DNA of 64,000 nt from Azospirillum cavernae (lineage in GTDB: Bacteria > Pseudomonadota > Alphaproteobacteria > Azospirillales > Azospirillaceae). The notes beneath the pieces are model-generated. The model had not been told where the DNA came from and ran no database searches. It worked only from the letters and a program-made list of their open reading frames with translations. The translations under genes and the position numbers were made by a program. Numbering within the stretch: position 1 is the first letter of the stretch; every line of letters begins with the position of its first letter. Positions 38,394 through 42,408 of the stretch are shown here, piece by piece. Location: assembly GCF_003590795.1 (NCBI RefSeq), contig NZ_QYUL01000002.1, positions 1,667,001-1,731,000 of the forward strand, given 5' to 3'.

Positions 38394-39503
38394 ATGACCA
38401 CCCCCACCGACCTCCACCACATGCGCGCCGCCTTGGCGTTGGCCGCGCGCGGGCTGGGGCGGACATGGCCGAACCCGGCGGTTGGCTGCGTGCTGGTCCG
38501 CGACGGCGTGGTGGTGGGGCGTGGCTGGACCCAGCCGGGCGGACGGCCTCACGCGGAGACGGAGGCGCTGGCCCGCGCCGGAGTCTTGGCCGAAGGCGCC
38601 ACCGCTTACGTCACGCTGGAGCCTTGCAATCATTACGGCAAGACGCCGCCCTGCGCGCTCGCCTTGATTGAGGCTAAAGTCGCCCGTGTTGTCGTCGCCT
38701 GCCAGGATCCTGACCCGCGCGTGGCGGGCGGCGGCTTGGCCCGGCTGCGCGACGCTGGAATCACGGTCGCCACCGGACTGTGCGAGGCGGAAGCGCTGGC
38801 GCTGAACGAGGGTTTTTTCAACCGCATTCAACACGCCCGCCCACTCTTCACCCTGAAGCTGGCGACGACGTTGGATGGCCGCATCGCGACGCGAACCGGA
38901 GCCTCGCAATGGATCACCGGCCCGGCGGCGCGGGCGGTCGGCCATCGCTTGCGCGCCACCCACGACGCCATTCTGGTCGGCATCGGCACCGCGTTGGCCG
39001 ACGATCCCGAACTGACCTGCCGTTTGCCGGGGCTGTCGGACCGCAGTCCGGTGCGGGTGGTGGTGGACAGCCGTTTGCGTCTGCCGCCAACCTCGAAGCT
39101 CGCGACCACGGCAAGGGCTGTGCCGACCTGGGTCGTCACCGGCGCGGATCCCGATCCGGTCAAGGCCGCCGCGCTGACCGAGCATGGCGTGGAAATTCTG
39201 CCGGTCGCCACGGACTCCGCCGACCGTCCCGACCCGCTGGCGCTGGCCGCCGCGCTGTCCGAACGCGGATTGACCCGCGTGCTGGTCGAAGGCGGGGCGA
39301 CGCTGGCCGCATCGTTGTTGGGGGCCGGGCTGATCGACCGGCTGGAGTGGTTCCGCGCGGCGGCGCTGATTGGCGGCGACGGTCTGGCGGGAGTCGCGGG
39401 CTTCGGAGTCGCCACGCTCGACCAGATGGCGCGCTTTGAGCGGACGGAGCTGCGGGCGGCGGGGGCTGATCTGGTGGAAAGCTACCGTCGGCGTCTGGTT
39501 TGA
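38394..39503 (+). CDS. ribD: bifunctional riboflavin deaminase/reductase RibD
   Basis: This 369-residue enzyme performs the deamination and side-chain reduction steps of riboflavin synthesis. The N-terminal deaminase has the zinc site HAETEAL plus LEPCNHYGKTPPC. The C-terminal reductase has KLATTLDGRIATRTGASQWI and LVEGGATLAASLL. It opens the ribD-ribE-ribBA-ribH-nusB-thiL run; ribE follows after 78 nt. The ATG at 38394 matches the usual N-terminus (HHMRAALALAARGLGRTWPN). Confidence 0.97.
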   Translation: MTTPTDLHHMRAALALAARGLGRTWPNPAVGCVLVRDGVVVGRGWTQPGGRPHAETEALARAGVLAEGATAYVTLEPCNHYGKTPPCALALIEAKVARVVVACQDPDPRVAGGGLARLRDAGITVATGLCEAEALALNEGFFNRIQHARPLFTLKLATTLDGRIATRTGASQWITGPAARAVGHRLRATHDAILVGIGTALADDPELTCRLPGLSDRSPVRVVVDSRLRLPPTSKLATTARAVPTWVVTGADPDPVKAAALTEHGVEILPVATDSADRPDPLALAAALSERGLTRVLVEGGATLAASLLGAGLIDRLEWFRAAALIGGDGLAGVAGFGVATLDQMARFERTELRAAGADLVESYRRRLV

Positions 39504-39581
39504 TCGGCGCAACAGTCCGTTGCGCGCGGCGCGCCGTCGTCCCCGCTTCCCCTTCGCGTGAAACCTGCTAAATTCCCCAGC

Positions 39582-40169
39582 ATGTTCACTGGAATCATCA
39601 CCGACATCGGGCGCGTGCGGGCCGTGGAACGGCAGGGCGACACCCGCTTCACCATCGAGACCGGCTTCGACACGGAGACGATCGCGATCGGGGCGTCCAT
39701 CGCCCACAACGGCGTTTGCCTGACGGTCATCGAAAAGGGACCGGGCTGGTACGTCATCCAGGCGTCGGGGGAAACCCTGTCGAAGACCACGTTGGGCGGC
39801 TGGGACGCCGGAACGCGGATCAATCTGGAACGCGCGCTGAAGGTCGGCGACGAGCTGGGCGGGCACATCGTGTCGGGCCATGTCGATGGCGTCGGCGTGT
39901 TGGCGGCGACCAAGCCGGAGGGCGAGTCCCTGCGCCTGACCTTCGAGGCGCCGGAGTCGCTGGCCAAATACATCGCCTCCAAGGGGTCGGTCGCCATCGA
40001 CGGCGTGTCGCTGACCGTCAACGAGGTGGCGGGCAATCGCTTTGGCGTCAACATCATCCCCCACACCCAGACGGCCACGACCTTTGGCGGCTTGCGGGTT
40101 GGGGATTCGGTGAATCTGGAAATTGATATGCTCGCGCGCTACGTCGCGCGGCTTGCGGGGCAGGAATGA
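39582..40169 (+). CDS. ribE: riboflavin synthase, alpha subunit
   Basis: This 195-residue protein has two lumazine-binding barrels in tandem. The first starts MFTGIITDIGRVRAVE with ASIAHNGVCLTVIE. The second contains HIVSGHVDGVGVL and SVAIDGVSLTVNEV. It dismutates two lumazine molecules to riboflavin plus the pyrimidine. Its TGA overlaps the ribBA ATG (40166-40169), so translation is coupled. The in-frame codons upstream of 39582 are not expected in the family. Confidence 0.97.
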   Translation: MFTGIITDIGRVRAVERQGDTRFTIETGFDTETIAIGASIAHNGVCLTVIEKGPGWYVIQASGETLSKTTLGGWDAGTRINLERALKVGDELGGHIVSGHVDGVGVLAATKPEGESLRLTFEAPESLAKYIASKGSVAIDGVSLTVNEVAGNRFGVNIIPHTQTATTFGGLRVGDSVNLEIDMLARYVARLAGQE

Positions 40170-41305
40170 CGTCCGAGTTTCACAGCTACCTGTCGTCCGC
40201 CGAGGAAATCCTCGAAGAGGCGCGCCAGGGCAAGATGTTCATCCTGGTCGATGACGAAGACCGCGAGAACGAAGGCGATCTGGTCATCCCGGCGAATTGC
40301 GCCACCCCGGAAGCGGTCAATTTCATGGCCAAGCATGGCCGTGGCCTGATCTGCCTGACGATGGACCAGGCCAACATCGAACGGCTGCGCCTGCCGCTGA
40401 TGGCCCAACAGAACGCCTCGCGCCACCAAACGGCTTTCACCGTCTCGATCGAGGCGCGCGAAGGGGTGACGACCGGCATTTCCGCCGCCGACCGCGCCCG
40501 CACCATCCAGGTCGCCATCGATCCGAAATCCGGCCCGCATGACATCGCCACGCCCGGCCACATCTTCCCGCTGCTGGCGCGCGAAGGCGGGGTTCTGGTC
40601 CGCGCCGGCCACACCGAGGCGTCGGTCGACATCTCGCGCCTGTCCGGTCATCCGCCCTCGGCGGTGATCTGCGAGATCATGAACGACGACGGCACGATGG
40701 CGCGTCTGCCCGATCTGGTGCAGTTCGCCCAACTTCATGGGCTGAAGGTCGGCACCATCGCCGATCTGATCGCCTACCGCCGCCGCACCGAAACCATCGT
40801 CGAACAGCGTCTGGCCGGGTCGCTGGACAGCCGGTTCGGCGGGCGCTTCCAGACCTACATCTACACCAACAAGATCCATTACGCCGAACACATCGCGCTG
40901 GTGCGCGGCGACATATCCGGCGACGAGCCGGTGCTGGTCCGCATGCACGCGCTGTCGGTGCTCGACGACGTGCTGGGCGACCGCAATTCCGGCCGGGCCG
41001 ACGAGTTGCAGGCGTCGATGGAGCTGATCGCCAAGGAAGGGCGCGGCGTCATCGTTCTGCTGCGCGAACCGCAGCCGAACGGCCTGTCGTCGGTGCTGAA
41101 GGCGCGGCTGGAAGGGCAGGTTGGCAGCGCCCCCACCCTGCGTGATTACGGCGTCGGCGCGCAGATCCTGTTGGATCTCGGCGTCCGCTCGATGATTTTG
41201 CTGTCGAACCGGCAAAAATCGATCATCGGGTTGGAAGGCTACGGTCTGACCGTGGTCGGCCATCGACCGATCACCGCAGCCGTGACCGATGGCGGAACGG
41301 ATTGA
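40166..41305 (+). CDS. ribB: DHBP synthase RibB with degenerate GTP-cyclohydrolase-II-like domain
   Basis: The N-terminal half (about 1-205) is an intact 3,4-dihydroxy-2-butanone-4-phosphate synthase: DDEDRENEGD at 29-38, HGRGLICL, and GHIFPLLAREGGVLVRAGHTE. The C-terminal half keeps the fold of GTP cyclohydrolase II (VLVRMHALSVLDDVLGD, GRGVIVLLRE, LRDYGVGAQILLDLGVRSM). It lacks the zinc-binding Cys residues (the C...CDCG cluster) and the catalytic R in that segment. So only the DHBP synthase activity is expected, as in RibBX-type proteins, and another GTP cyclohydrolase II should exist elsewhere in the genome. Confidence 0.95.
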   Translation: MTSEFHSYLSSAEEILEEARQGKMFILVDDEDRENEGDLVIPANCATPEAVNFMAKHGRGLICLTMDQANIERLRLPLMAQQNASRHQTAFTVSIEAREGVTTGISAADRARTIQVAIDPKSGPHDIATPGHIFPLLAREGGVLVRAGHTEASVDISRLSGHPPSAVICEIMNDDGTMARLPDLVQFAQLHGLKVGTIADLIAYRRRTETIVEQRLAGSLDSRFGGRFQTYIYTNKIHYAEHIALVRGDISGDEPVLVRMHALSVLDDVLGDRNSGRADELQASMELIAKEGRGVIVLLREPQPNGLSSVLKARLEGQVGSAPTLRDYGVGAQILLDLGVRSMILLSNRQKSIIGLEGYGLTVVGHRPITAAVTDGGTD

Positions 41306-41341
41306 GGGTGAGGACCCGCTGATGGATTGGCGCCGCGCCGG

Positions 41342-41806
41342 ATGACCGACACCCCCCACATCATGGTTGTGGACGCCCGCAGCCACGAGGACATCGCCGA
41401 GGAATTGGCGCGTGGCGCCATCGGGGAGCTGACCCGCGCGGGGGCCACCCACATTCGCTATGGCGTGCCGGGGTGTCTGGAAATTCCGGCGGCGGTGCTC
41501 TACGCCATCCGGTCCATGGATTTTTTCACGGCACGCAAGCGGTTCGACGGCTATGTCGCGCTCGGCTGCGTGATCCGGGGCGAGACGACGCGGTACGACA
41601 CAATCTGCGCCGAAAGCGCGCGTGGGCTTCAGGATCTGGCGTTGCGTTACACCCTGGCGGTCGGCAACGGCATCCTGACGGTGGAAAATCGCGAACAGGC
41701 TTGGGTGCGCGCCAACGTCGGATCCAAAAATATGGGCGGGGCCGCCGCGCGGGCCTGCCTTGACATGATTGACCTGAAGCGCAAATTCCGCCTCTATCCG
41801 CGTTGA
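41342..41806 (+). CDS. ribH: 6,7-dimethyl-8-ribityllumazine synthase with altered active site
   Basis: This 154-residue protein has the lumazine synthase fold markers YGVPGCLEIPAAVLYAI, ALGCVIRGET and NGILTVENREQA. Two usual active-site residues differ. The His of the RGxTTHYD motif (His88 in Bacillus subtilis) is Arg84 here (RGETTRYD), and the aromatic residue that stacks on the pyrimidine (Phe22) is Ser14 (VDARSHED). Recalled type II (RibH2) enzymes also carry Arg at the first position, so activity may persist. Operon position between ribB and nusB strongly supports its role. The ATG at 41342 is chosen. Confidence 0.9.
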   Translation: MTDTPHIMVVDARSHEDIAEELARGAIGELTRAGATHIRYGVPGCLEIPAAVLYAIRSMDFFTARKRFDGYVALGCVIRGETTRYDTICAESARGLQDLALRYTLAVGNGILTVENREQAWVRANVGSKNMGGAAARACLDMIDLKRKFRLYPR

Positions 41807-41835
41807 TCCCTTTTTCAGTGACTGCAAAGACCATC

Positions 41836-42408
41836 ATGAGCAACGACGACGCGGCCAGCCGCGCGACACCCAAGCGCACATCCGGCAAATCCGGTGGCCG
41901 CAACCGGACCGGCGGCGGTTCCGCCAAGGCCCGCCGCAAGGCCGCCCGCCTGGGCGCGGTGCAGGCGCTGTACCAGATCGACCTGACCGGCGCGGCGGTG
42001 GAAACCGTGGTGGCTGAGTTTGTGACCCATCGCTTGGGCGAGGAAATCGACGGAACCAAATTCGTCGCCGGGGATCCGCAACTGTTTTCTGACATCGTGC
42101 GCGGGGCGATGCACCGCAAGGCCGAGGTGGACAGCGTGTTGACGGCGGCGCTTGACCCGCGCTTTCCCATCGACCGGCTGGAGTTGCTGCTCCGCGCCAT
42201 CCTGCGCGCCGGGGCTTATGAGATCGCCGTCCATCTCGACACCCACCCGCGCATCCTCATCAGCGAGTATGTGGACGTCGGCCACGCCTTCTTCGCCGGG
42301 CGCGAACCGGCGATGGTGAACGGCGTGCTCGACCATGTCGCCCGCGCCCTGCGCGCCGACGATCTGGCCAAGCCGGATCCGTCGCGCGGCGGCCCGTCGG
42401 CGGAGTGA
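41836..42408 (+). CDS. nusB: transcription antitermination factor NusB
   Basis: The 190-residue protein starts at ATG 41836 with a basic, disordered extension of about 40 residues (SGGRNRTGGGSAKARRKAAR). The helical NusB core follows: AARLGAVQALYQIDLTGAAV, DRLELLLRAILRAGAYEIAV, ILISEYVDVGHAFFAGREPA and MVNGVLDHVARALR. With NusE it binds boxA RNA and supports rRNA antitermination. The ribH-nusB-thiL order is canonical. Confidence 0.96.
   Translation: MSNDDAASRATPKRTSGKSGGRNRTGGGSAKARRKAARLGAVQALYQIDLTGAAVETVVAEFVTHRLGEEIDGTKFVAGDPQLFSDIVRGAMHRKAEVDSVLTAALDPRFPIDRLELLLRAILRAGAYEIAVHLDTHPRILISEYVDVGHAFFAGREPAMVNGVLDHVARALRADDLAKPDPSRGGPSAE

Follow-up and report, generated by a model that had tools for sequence, protein, structure and literature searches.

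The riboflavin operon of the window

The window, a stretch of 64,000 nucleotides of Azospirillum cavernae, carries on its plus strand an operon with the order ribD, riboflavin synthase, ribBA, ribH and nusB, as read from the list of open reading frames (ORFs). ribD (38394..39503), the riboflavin synthase alpha chain gene (39558..40169) and ribBA (40166..41305) have the bounds of the listed ORFs and lie upstream of ribH (41342..41806); nusB (41836..42408) lies downstream, and for its start we took the first ATG in frame within the listed ORF 41803-42408. The names of the four genes around ribH are those that we presume from family features and, for ribBA, also from its position. A scan of the window at Rfam gathering scores gave one tRNA only. 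An open frame of 562 amino acids runs antisense to ribBA and ribH (40139-41827, minus strand) and is probably a by-product of the high G+C content. Elsewhere in the same genome, a second gene (L284; G000 C2:498988-499563) encodes a protein 49% identical to residues 15-206 of RibBA.

Translation of 41342-41806 gives a 154-aa protein with the motifs VVDARSHED and RGETTRYD. We numbered this protein by alignment against segments of RibH from Bacillus subtilis and RibH1 from Brucella, and positions below are those of B. subtilis unless stated otherwise. Ser14 (AGC, 41381..41383, plus strand) is aligned to Phe22, Arg84 (CGG, 41591..41593, plus strand) to His88, and Met131 (ATG, 41732..41734, plus strand) to Lys135. 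The first-pass annotation, made from the letters of the window, had reported Arg at the His88 site and Ser at the site of the Phe that stacks on the pyrimidine; translation and alignment agree with it on both. The residue set of functional type I enzymes (an aromatic residue at 22, His88 and Lys135) is replaced by S, R and M; in addition, His15 of the window protein stands where Tyr usually follows the Phe. Arg127 and Thr86 are retained.

The window RibH contains the lumazine synthase domain (Pfam PF00885, 132.5 bits; cut-off 26.7), and it scored below the cut-offs of both best-matching NCBIfam lumazine synthase equivalogs (159.5 vs 174 and 82.9 vs 84.6), whereas a relative with His88 (L003) scored above both (183.4 and 103.5). 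It is a type I lumazine synthase by descent: in the tree it falls in the type I branch, in keeping with the earlier judgement that the rest of its sequence looks type I. A structure model (input P0001 and 36 third-type relatives) had a pLDDT of 90.4 and matched Brucella RibH1 (PDB 2o6h, 2f59) with a TM of 0.9 at 50-51% identity. The active site of lumazine synthase lies between subunits; the model is a single chain, so the pocket was left out of our conclusions. The window protein thus resembles Brucella RibH1, a type I enzyme, in fold, tree branch, place in the rib operon, Arg127 and RGET, but differs from it in the replacement of Phe22, His88 and Lys135 and in falling below both equivalog cut-offs. 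With type II enzymes (the kind of Brucella RibH2) it shares the Arg aligned at the His88 site. That type II proteins have Arg there had been stated in the first-pass annotation, and it holds in three type II proteins of the same family (L268-L270, GGIYRHDF); these proteins, however, have Trp at 22, His after the Arg and a tree branch of their own. Membership of the window RibH in type II was ruled out by the Ser at 22, the R-Y pair at 88-89 and the placement in the type I branch.

A second lumazine synthase gene of a third type

As suspected in the first-pass annotation, the genome of the window (G000; 6.46 Mb, 9 contigs) encodes another RibH: contig C5 carries a further PF00885 gene (L002/L069; 134 aa as listed), whose protein is highly divergent from the operon RibH. 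Judged from its sequence, this protein is of a third type, neither type I nor type II. In an unrooted tree of 94 rows and 142 columns (42 of its 91 inner branches drawn open), the third type formed a clade with a support of 100 (SH-aLRT) that includes copies of two archaeal genomes (L095 and L147). The split that parts it, together with the archaeal enzymes, from types I and II had a support of 98, and its own stem was long, at 2.25 changes per column. The Azospirillum copies (with that of genome G114) and the copies of Telmatospirillum and g10 are on different branches; therefore, the third type was likely acquired at least two times in these Alphaproteobacteria.

Phe14, His78, Arg118 and Arg120 of the third type are invariant in all 15 rows of alignment A1, made from 15 of the 28 copies found in the genus. 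Employing A1, we scanned named genomes by pattern, a search that is not exhaustive, and obtained 77 third-type loci, of which 19 are in Azospirillum; the others are mainly from Uhrbacteria and other Patescibacteria, Gammaproteobacteria and other Proteobacteria and Acidobacteria, with three from Telmatospirillum and two from archaea. The third type is scarce in the class: of 385 genomes sampled, six have it, and two of the six are from Azospirillum. One distant copy (L145/L171, genome G076) has Asn for the active-site His (GETKNG), and G076 has no other PF00885 match.

That the third type acts as a lumazine synthase is supported indirectly, because it is the sole PF00885 gene found in 52 of 57 other genomes (28/33 and 24/24; most of these are metagenome-assembled, with completeness not given) and because a riboflavin synthase gene lies within 400 bases of it at 20 of 58 loci outside Azospirillum. 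The product of one such adjoining gene was tested and has the Pfam domain Lum_binding. The two third-type copies that we scanned miss the NCBIfam cut-offs.

The second gene is on a separate contig in the genome of the window, beside a BenE transporter gene and a gene whose protein has no Pfam match, and on a plasmid in Azospirillum ramasamyi, beside genes for two hypothetical proteins and a PAS histidine kinase. In these two regions there is no riboflavin gene beside it, and the context gave no lead on regulation. A plasmid record of Azospirillum lipoferum 4B likewise contains a match to the third type. In 13 loci scanned at Rfam gathering scores, an FMN riboswitch was absent and the matches were to tRNA, 5S rRNA and a xanthine riboswitch. 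The latter (L135 8605-8663, minus strand) is about 3 kb from the third-type gene of Telmatospirillum siberiense. A metagenome-assembled Rhodospirillum genome (G047) with operon-type and third-type genes has a third, partial PF00885 match (C84:112174-112440, 49.9 bits).

Loss of active-site residues in Azospirillum and its family

The operon ribH is present in all 45 Azospirillum genomes, and 28 of them also have the second gene. In the 17 single-gene genomes, Phe22 and His88 are kept without exception. At position 88, the 28 two-gene genomes show Arg in 22, Gln in two and Ala in one, and three (G010, G027 and G028) are intact. The 22 Arg-type genomes have V (17), S (3), A (1) or L (1) at position 22 and M (16) or T (6) at position 135. 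A sequencing error at 41591-41593, which the first-pass annotation had named as a possible source of the Arg, is excluded by its presence in 22 of the 45 genomes.

The family was sampled with 82 genomes of 13 genera (the family search and the order search gave the same set); the third-type gene occurs in 37 of them, and the operon gene could be read in 81, the exception being G108, which has no full gene. In the 45 family genomes with the operon gene and without the third type, Phe22 and His88 are always kept and Lys135 is kept in 44 (it is lost in G113). The other objection raised beforehand, that the same residues might be common in active orthologues, fails here. Among the 37 genomes with the third type, 28 have another residue in place of His88 (R 22, Q 4, A 1, L 1), and 24 of these have lost Phe22 as well; Lys135 is lost in 30 of the 36 operon copies. 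Phe22 and His88 are both kept in 8 of the 37; the second gene alone thus does not force decay. Arg127 is present in all 82 aligned rows (B. subtilis included) and Glu-Thr at 85-86 in all 81 operon copies. The three type II copies mentioned above come from genomes of genus code g11 that have no third type and have intact type I operon residues.

In G108, which has the third-type gene only, a 45-codon remnant of ribH lies between ribBA and nusB (L281 1352-1489, minus strand). The remnant is identical to the C-terminus of the window RibH at 19 of 33 positions (E 2e-10), and against RibH of its genus mate G109 it gave a local score of 101, whereas none of 500 shuffles exceeded 40. The operon gene of G109 has kept both Phe22 and His88, and the third type is absent from this genome.

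Outside the family, seven genomes have both kinds of gene (5 of 33 in one set and 2 of 4 in another). His88 is kept in four of these, replaced by Tyr in two Telmatospirillum genomes, and missing with its motif in G290; Lys135 is replaced in six and is not readable in G290. The operon-type RibH of G290, a small alphaproteobacterial genome with the third type, is very degenerate (L297, 1438 onward; the RGETTH motif is gone), and its genus mate G159 has the third type only.

Tests that allow for kinship

With kinship ignored, residue loss was associated with third-type presence at p 3e-15 (Fisher's test). In a tree based on the flanking genes ribBA and nusB, the 22 Arg-type genomes form one clade, in which no other residue occurs at position 88. 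Losses are at separate places on this tree: in G013, in G016, in G043 together with the Arg clade, in G114, in G120, in G121 and, as a deletion, in G108. Parsimony on the same tree gave seven changes, namely five losses and two returns to His. Returns to His are unlikely, and without them there are about seven losses, so the number is uncertain. Lineages with the third type make up 0.33 of the branch length, and all five losses would fall on them by chance with a probability of about 0.004. An independent-pairs test, which is stricter but had too few pairs to reach significance, gave about 3 to 0 in the expected direction, with none against and a median p of 0.25.

The Arg-type operon gene is under purifying selection

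Based on pairwise Nei-Gojobori estimates (own script; only pairs with dS of 0.1 to 1; pairs are non-independent), the dN/dS of the operon gene in the 22 Arg-type genomes was 0.10 both as the median and as the ratio of sums (227 of 231 pairs). In the same genomes, the medians (ratios of sums) were 0.17 (0.21) for the third-type gene, 0.13 (0.14) for ribBA and 0.21 (0.22) for nusB; for the operon gene of His-type genomes of the genus, the value was 0.07 (0.13; 149 of 190 pairs). We defined a conserved column as one with the same residue in at least 44 of the 45 single-gene genomes. Of 63 such columns, there are seven (19, 22, 23, 88, 90, 92 and 135) at which a majority of the Arg clade has another residue, and in the other 56 the family residue is kept in at least half of the clade. 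None of the 22 Arg-type genomes has an internal stop in the operon-gene match. The Arg-type operon gene is under strong purifying selection, and because of this low dN/dS its product looks like a maintained pseudoenzyme or a very slow enzyme and not like the product of a dying gene.

A probable takeover of catalysis by the third type

The explanation that we consider likely is that the third-type enzyme took over catalysis and thereby freed the active site of the operon RibH, the Arg-type protein being kept as a pseudoenzyme or a very slow enzyme. An enzyme related to those of archaea and of the Burkholderia flavophos cluster would have been acquired elsewhere in the genome and, as we infer, would have taken over the formation of 6,7-dimethyl-8-ribityllumazine. 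Released from catalysis, the operon RibH would then have lost its active site, whose residues were replaced differently in several lineages, and in one lineage its gene was deleted. In the Azospirillum clade of the window, the operon protein is strongly conserved and would have been kept folded, with Arg127 and the RGETT loop retained. A protein that has lost much or all of its chemistry and yet is kept likely has a role that needs the fold, Arg127 and the RGETT loop; this job would most likely be non-catalytic, with the protein binding a ligand or serving riboflavin synthesis as an assembly partner. Counting against the takeover are the 8 of 37 third-type genomes whose operon gene has Phe22 and His88 intact, the retention of His88 in four of the seven two-gene genomes outside the family, and the loss of Lys135 in G113, which lacks the third type.

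In its furthest form, the explanation makes the Arg-type RibH a pseudoenzyme proper, a shell that has ceased to make lumazine and is selected for some new role, its catalysis outsourced to an enzyme of another type, and this outsourcing repeated several times; we put this forward tentatively and think it somewhat doubtful. Such a protein may bind ligands or partners, in mixed assemblies with the third type, as a scaffold for riboflavin synthase or as a sink for substrate-like inhibitors. A sink is conceivable, since according to the flavophos preprint (PMC12871164) protection against this inhibitor persisted in two low-activity B. subtilis mutants, R127T and H88K/K131N, perhaps because they sequester it. 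An open-access literature search gave, among the matches listed, no paper joining lumazine synthase and Azospirillum and nothing on point for a pseudoenzyme.

Replacements of His88 in B. subtilis lumazine synthase reportedly lower its activity and need not abolish it, and for this reason a slow enzyme has to be taken seriously as a rival. The Arg-type RibH could still be working, slowly or with Arg serving for His, and the two enzymes could share the work by condition like RibH1 and RibH2 of Brucella; we hold this to be possible and less than probable, and it overlaps in part with the takeover, which permits a very slow enzyme. Arg stands at the same site in type II proteins, and the Brucella type II enzyme is active, if at a low level, so Arg need not abolish activity; Brucella keeps two low-activity enzymes (both points from PMC2828483). 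In the same direction point the Arg127 and Glu-Thr common to all operon copies, the low dN/dS, and the uniformity of Arg across the 22-genome clade while position 22 drifts, a hint that Arg is useful. Against continued activity, the ligand-site positions 22, 88 and 135 were lost together, with S, V, A and L at 22; the Trp at 22 and the His after Arg that accompany Arg in type II are both absent from the window RibH; and no family genome without the third type has lost residue 22 or 88. The double mutant H88K/K131N of B. subtilis is also called very low in activity in the flavophos preprint (PMC12871164). Of the first-pass interpretation, the second RibH exists and residue loss is tied to its presence across the family; the operon protein may be slow, inactive or a physical partner of the second enzyme. 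That the operon gene is simply decaying, redundant and heading for deletion, is improbable. The 45-aa remnant of G108 would be the end point of such decay, the very degenerate copy of G290 beside its third type outside the family fits it, and His88 has several different replacements. A relic, however, would sit poorly with the absence of internal stops in the 22 Arg-type genomes, with a dN/dS of about 0.10 that is below those of its three companion genes, and with the family residue being kept in most of the conserved columns.

The third type might also have been a resistance copy against an inhibitor of lumazine synthase such as flavophos and have spread by such selection. This concerns the acquisition and does not exclude the takeover; we regard it as quite improbable. 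It draws on BsfB, a lumazine synthase homologue that confers flavophos resistance when expressed in Escherichia coli (PMC12871164). Burkholderia stagnalis has a relative of the second copy found in the window genome (59.5% identical across 88% of the query). This relative adjoins a PEP mutase gene and is separated by a gene for a hypothetical protein from a 3-keto-5-aminohexanoate cleavage gene, as in the flavophos cluster, and it is on the strand opposite to these. Because its context matches the cluster in the preprint (PMC12871164), we infer that this plasmid gene is bsfB, although its translation has Tyr at the Phe22 position and BsfB is said there to have Phe22. BsfB and the second gene product are of the same clade (support 100), but in the one annotated region from Azospirillum none of the 19 features is named as a phosphonate gene, and the second gene appears to encode the main enzyme. 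Selection by an inhibitor is further opposed by the third type being the sole enzyme found in 52 of 57 other genomes and by the resistance that housekeeping enzymes of other species conferred too in the same preprint (PMC12871164); it would account for the acquisition and not for the residue loss.

The takeover would apparently make this family a repeated natural experiment, with the active site of a vitamin enzyme being lost only in the presence of a substitute. Its stages are visible side by side: operon enzymes intact beside the substitute, residues lost, and the gene deleted. Both genes would receive the same enzyme annotation, though one product is probably that enzyme no longer. With the retained protein, one could ask what uses the lumazine synthase fold has apart from catalysis. 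Because the substitute groups with a protein of the flavophos cluster, the case is also relevant to lumazine synthase as a target of antibiotics.

Like the third type, archaeal lumazine synthases are separated from types I and II in the tree (support 98), and the two groups have in common a GPxxxxxQxxxR motif near the C-terminus; the third type differs in having its own long stem, and it is itself present in the two archaeal genomes of L095 and L147. Of 60 genomes sampled from the phylum to which a Poseidoniaceae archaeon belongs, 3 have a bacterial-like type I lumazine synthase as their sole PF00885 match (L298, L299 and L300).
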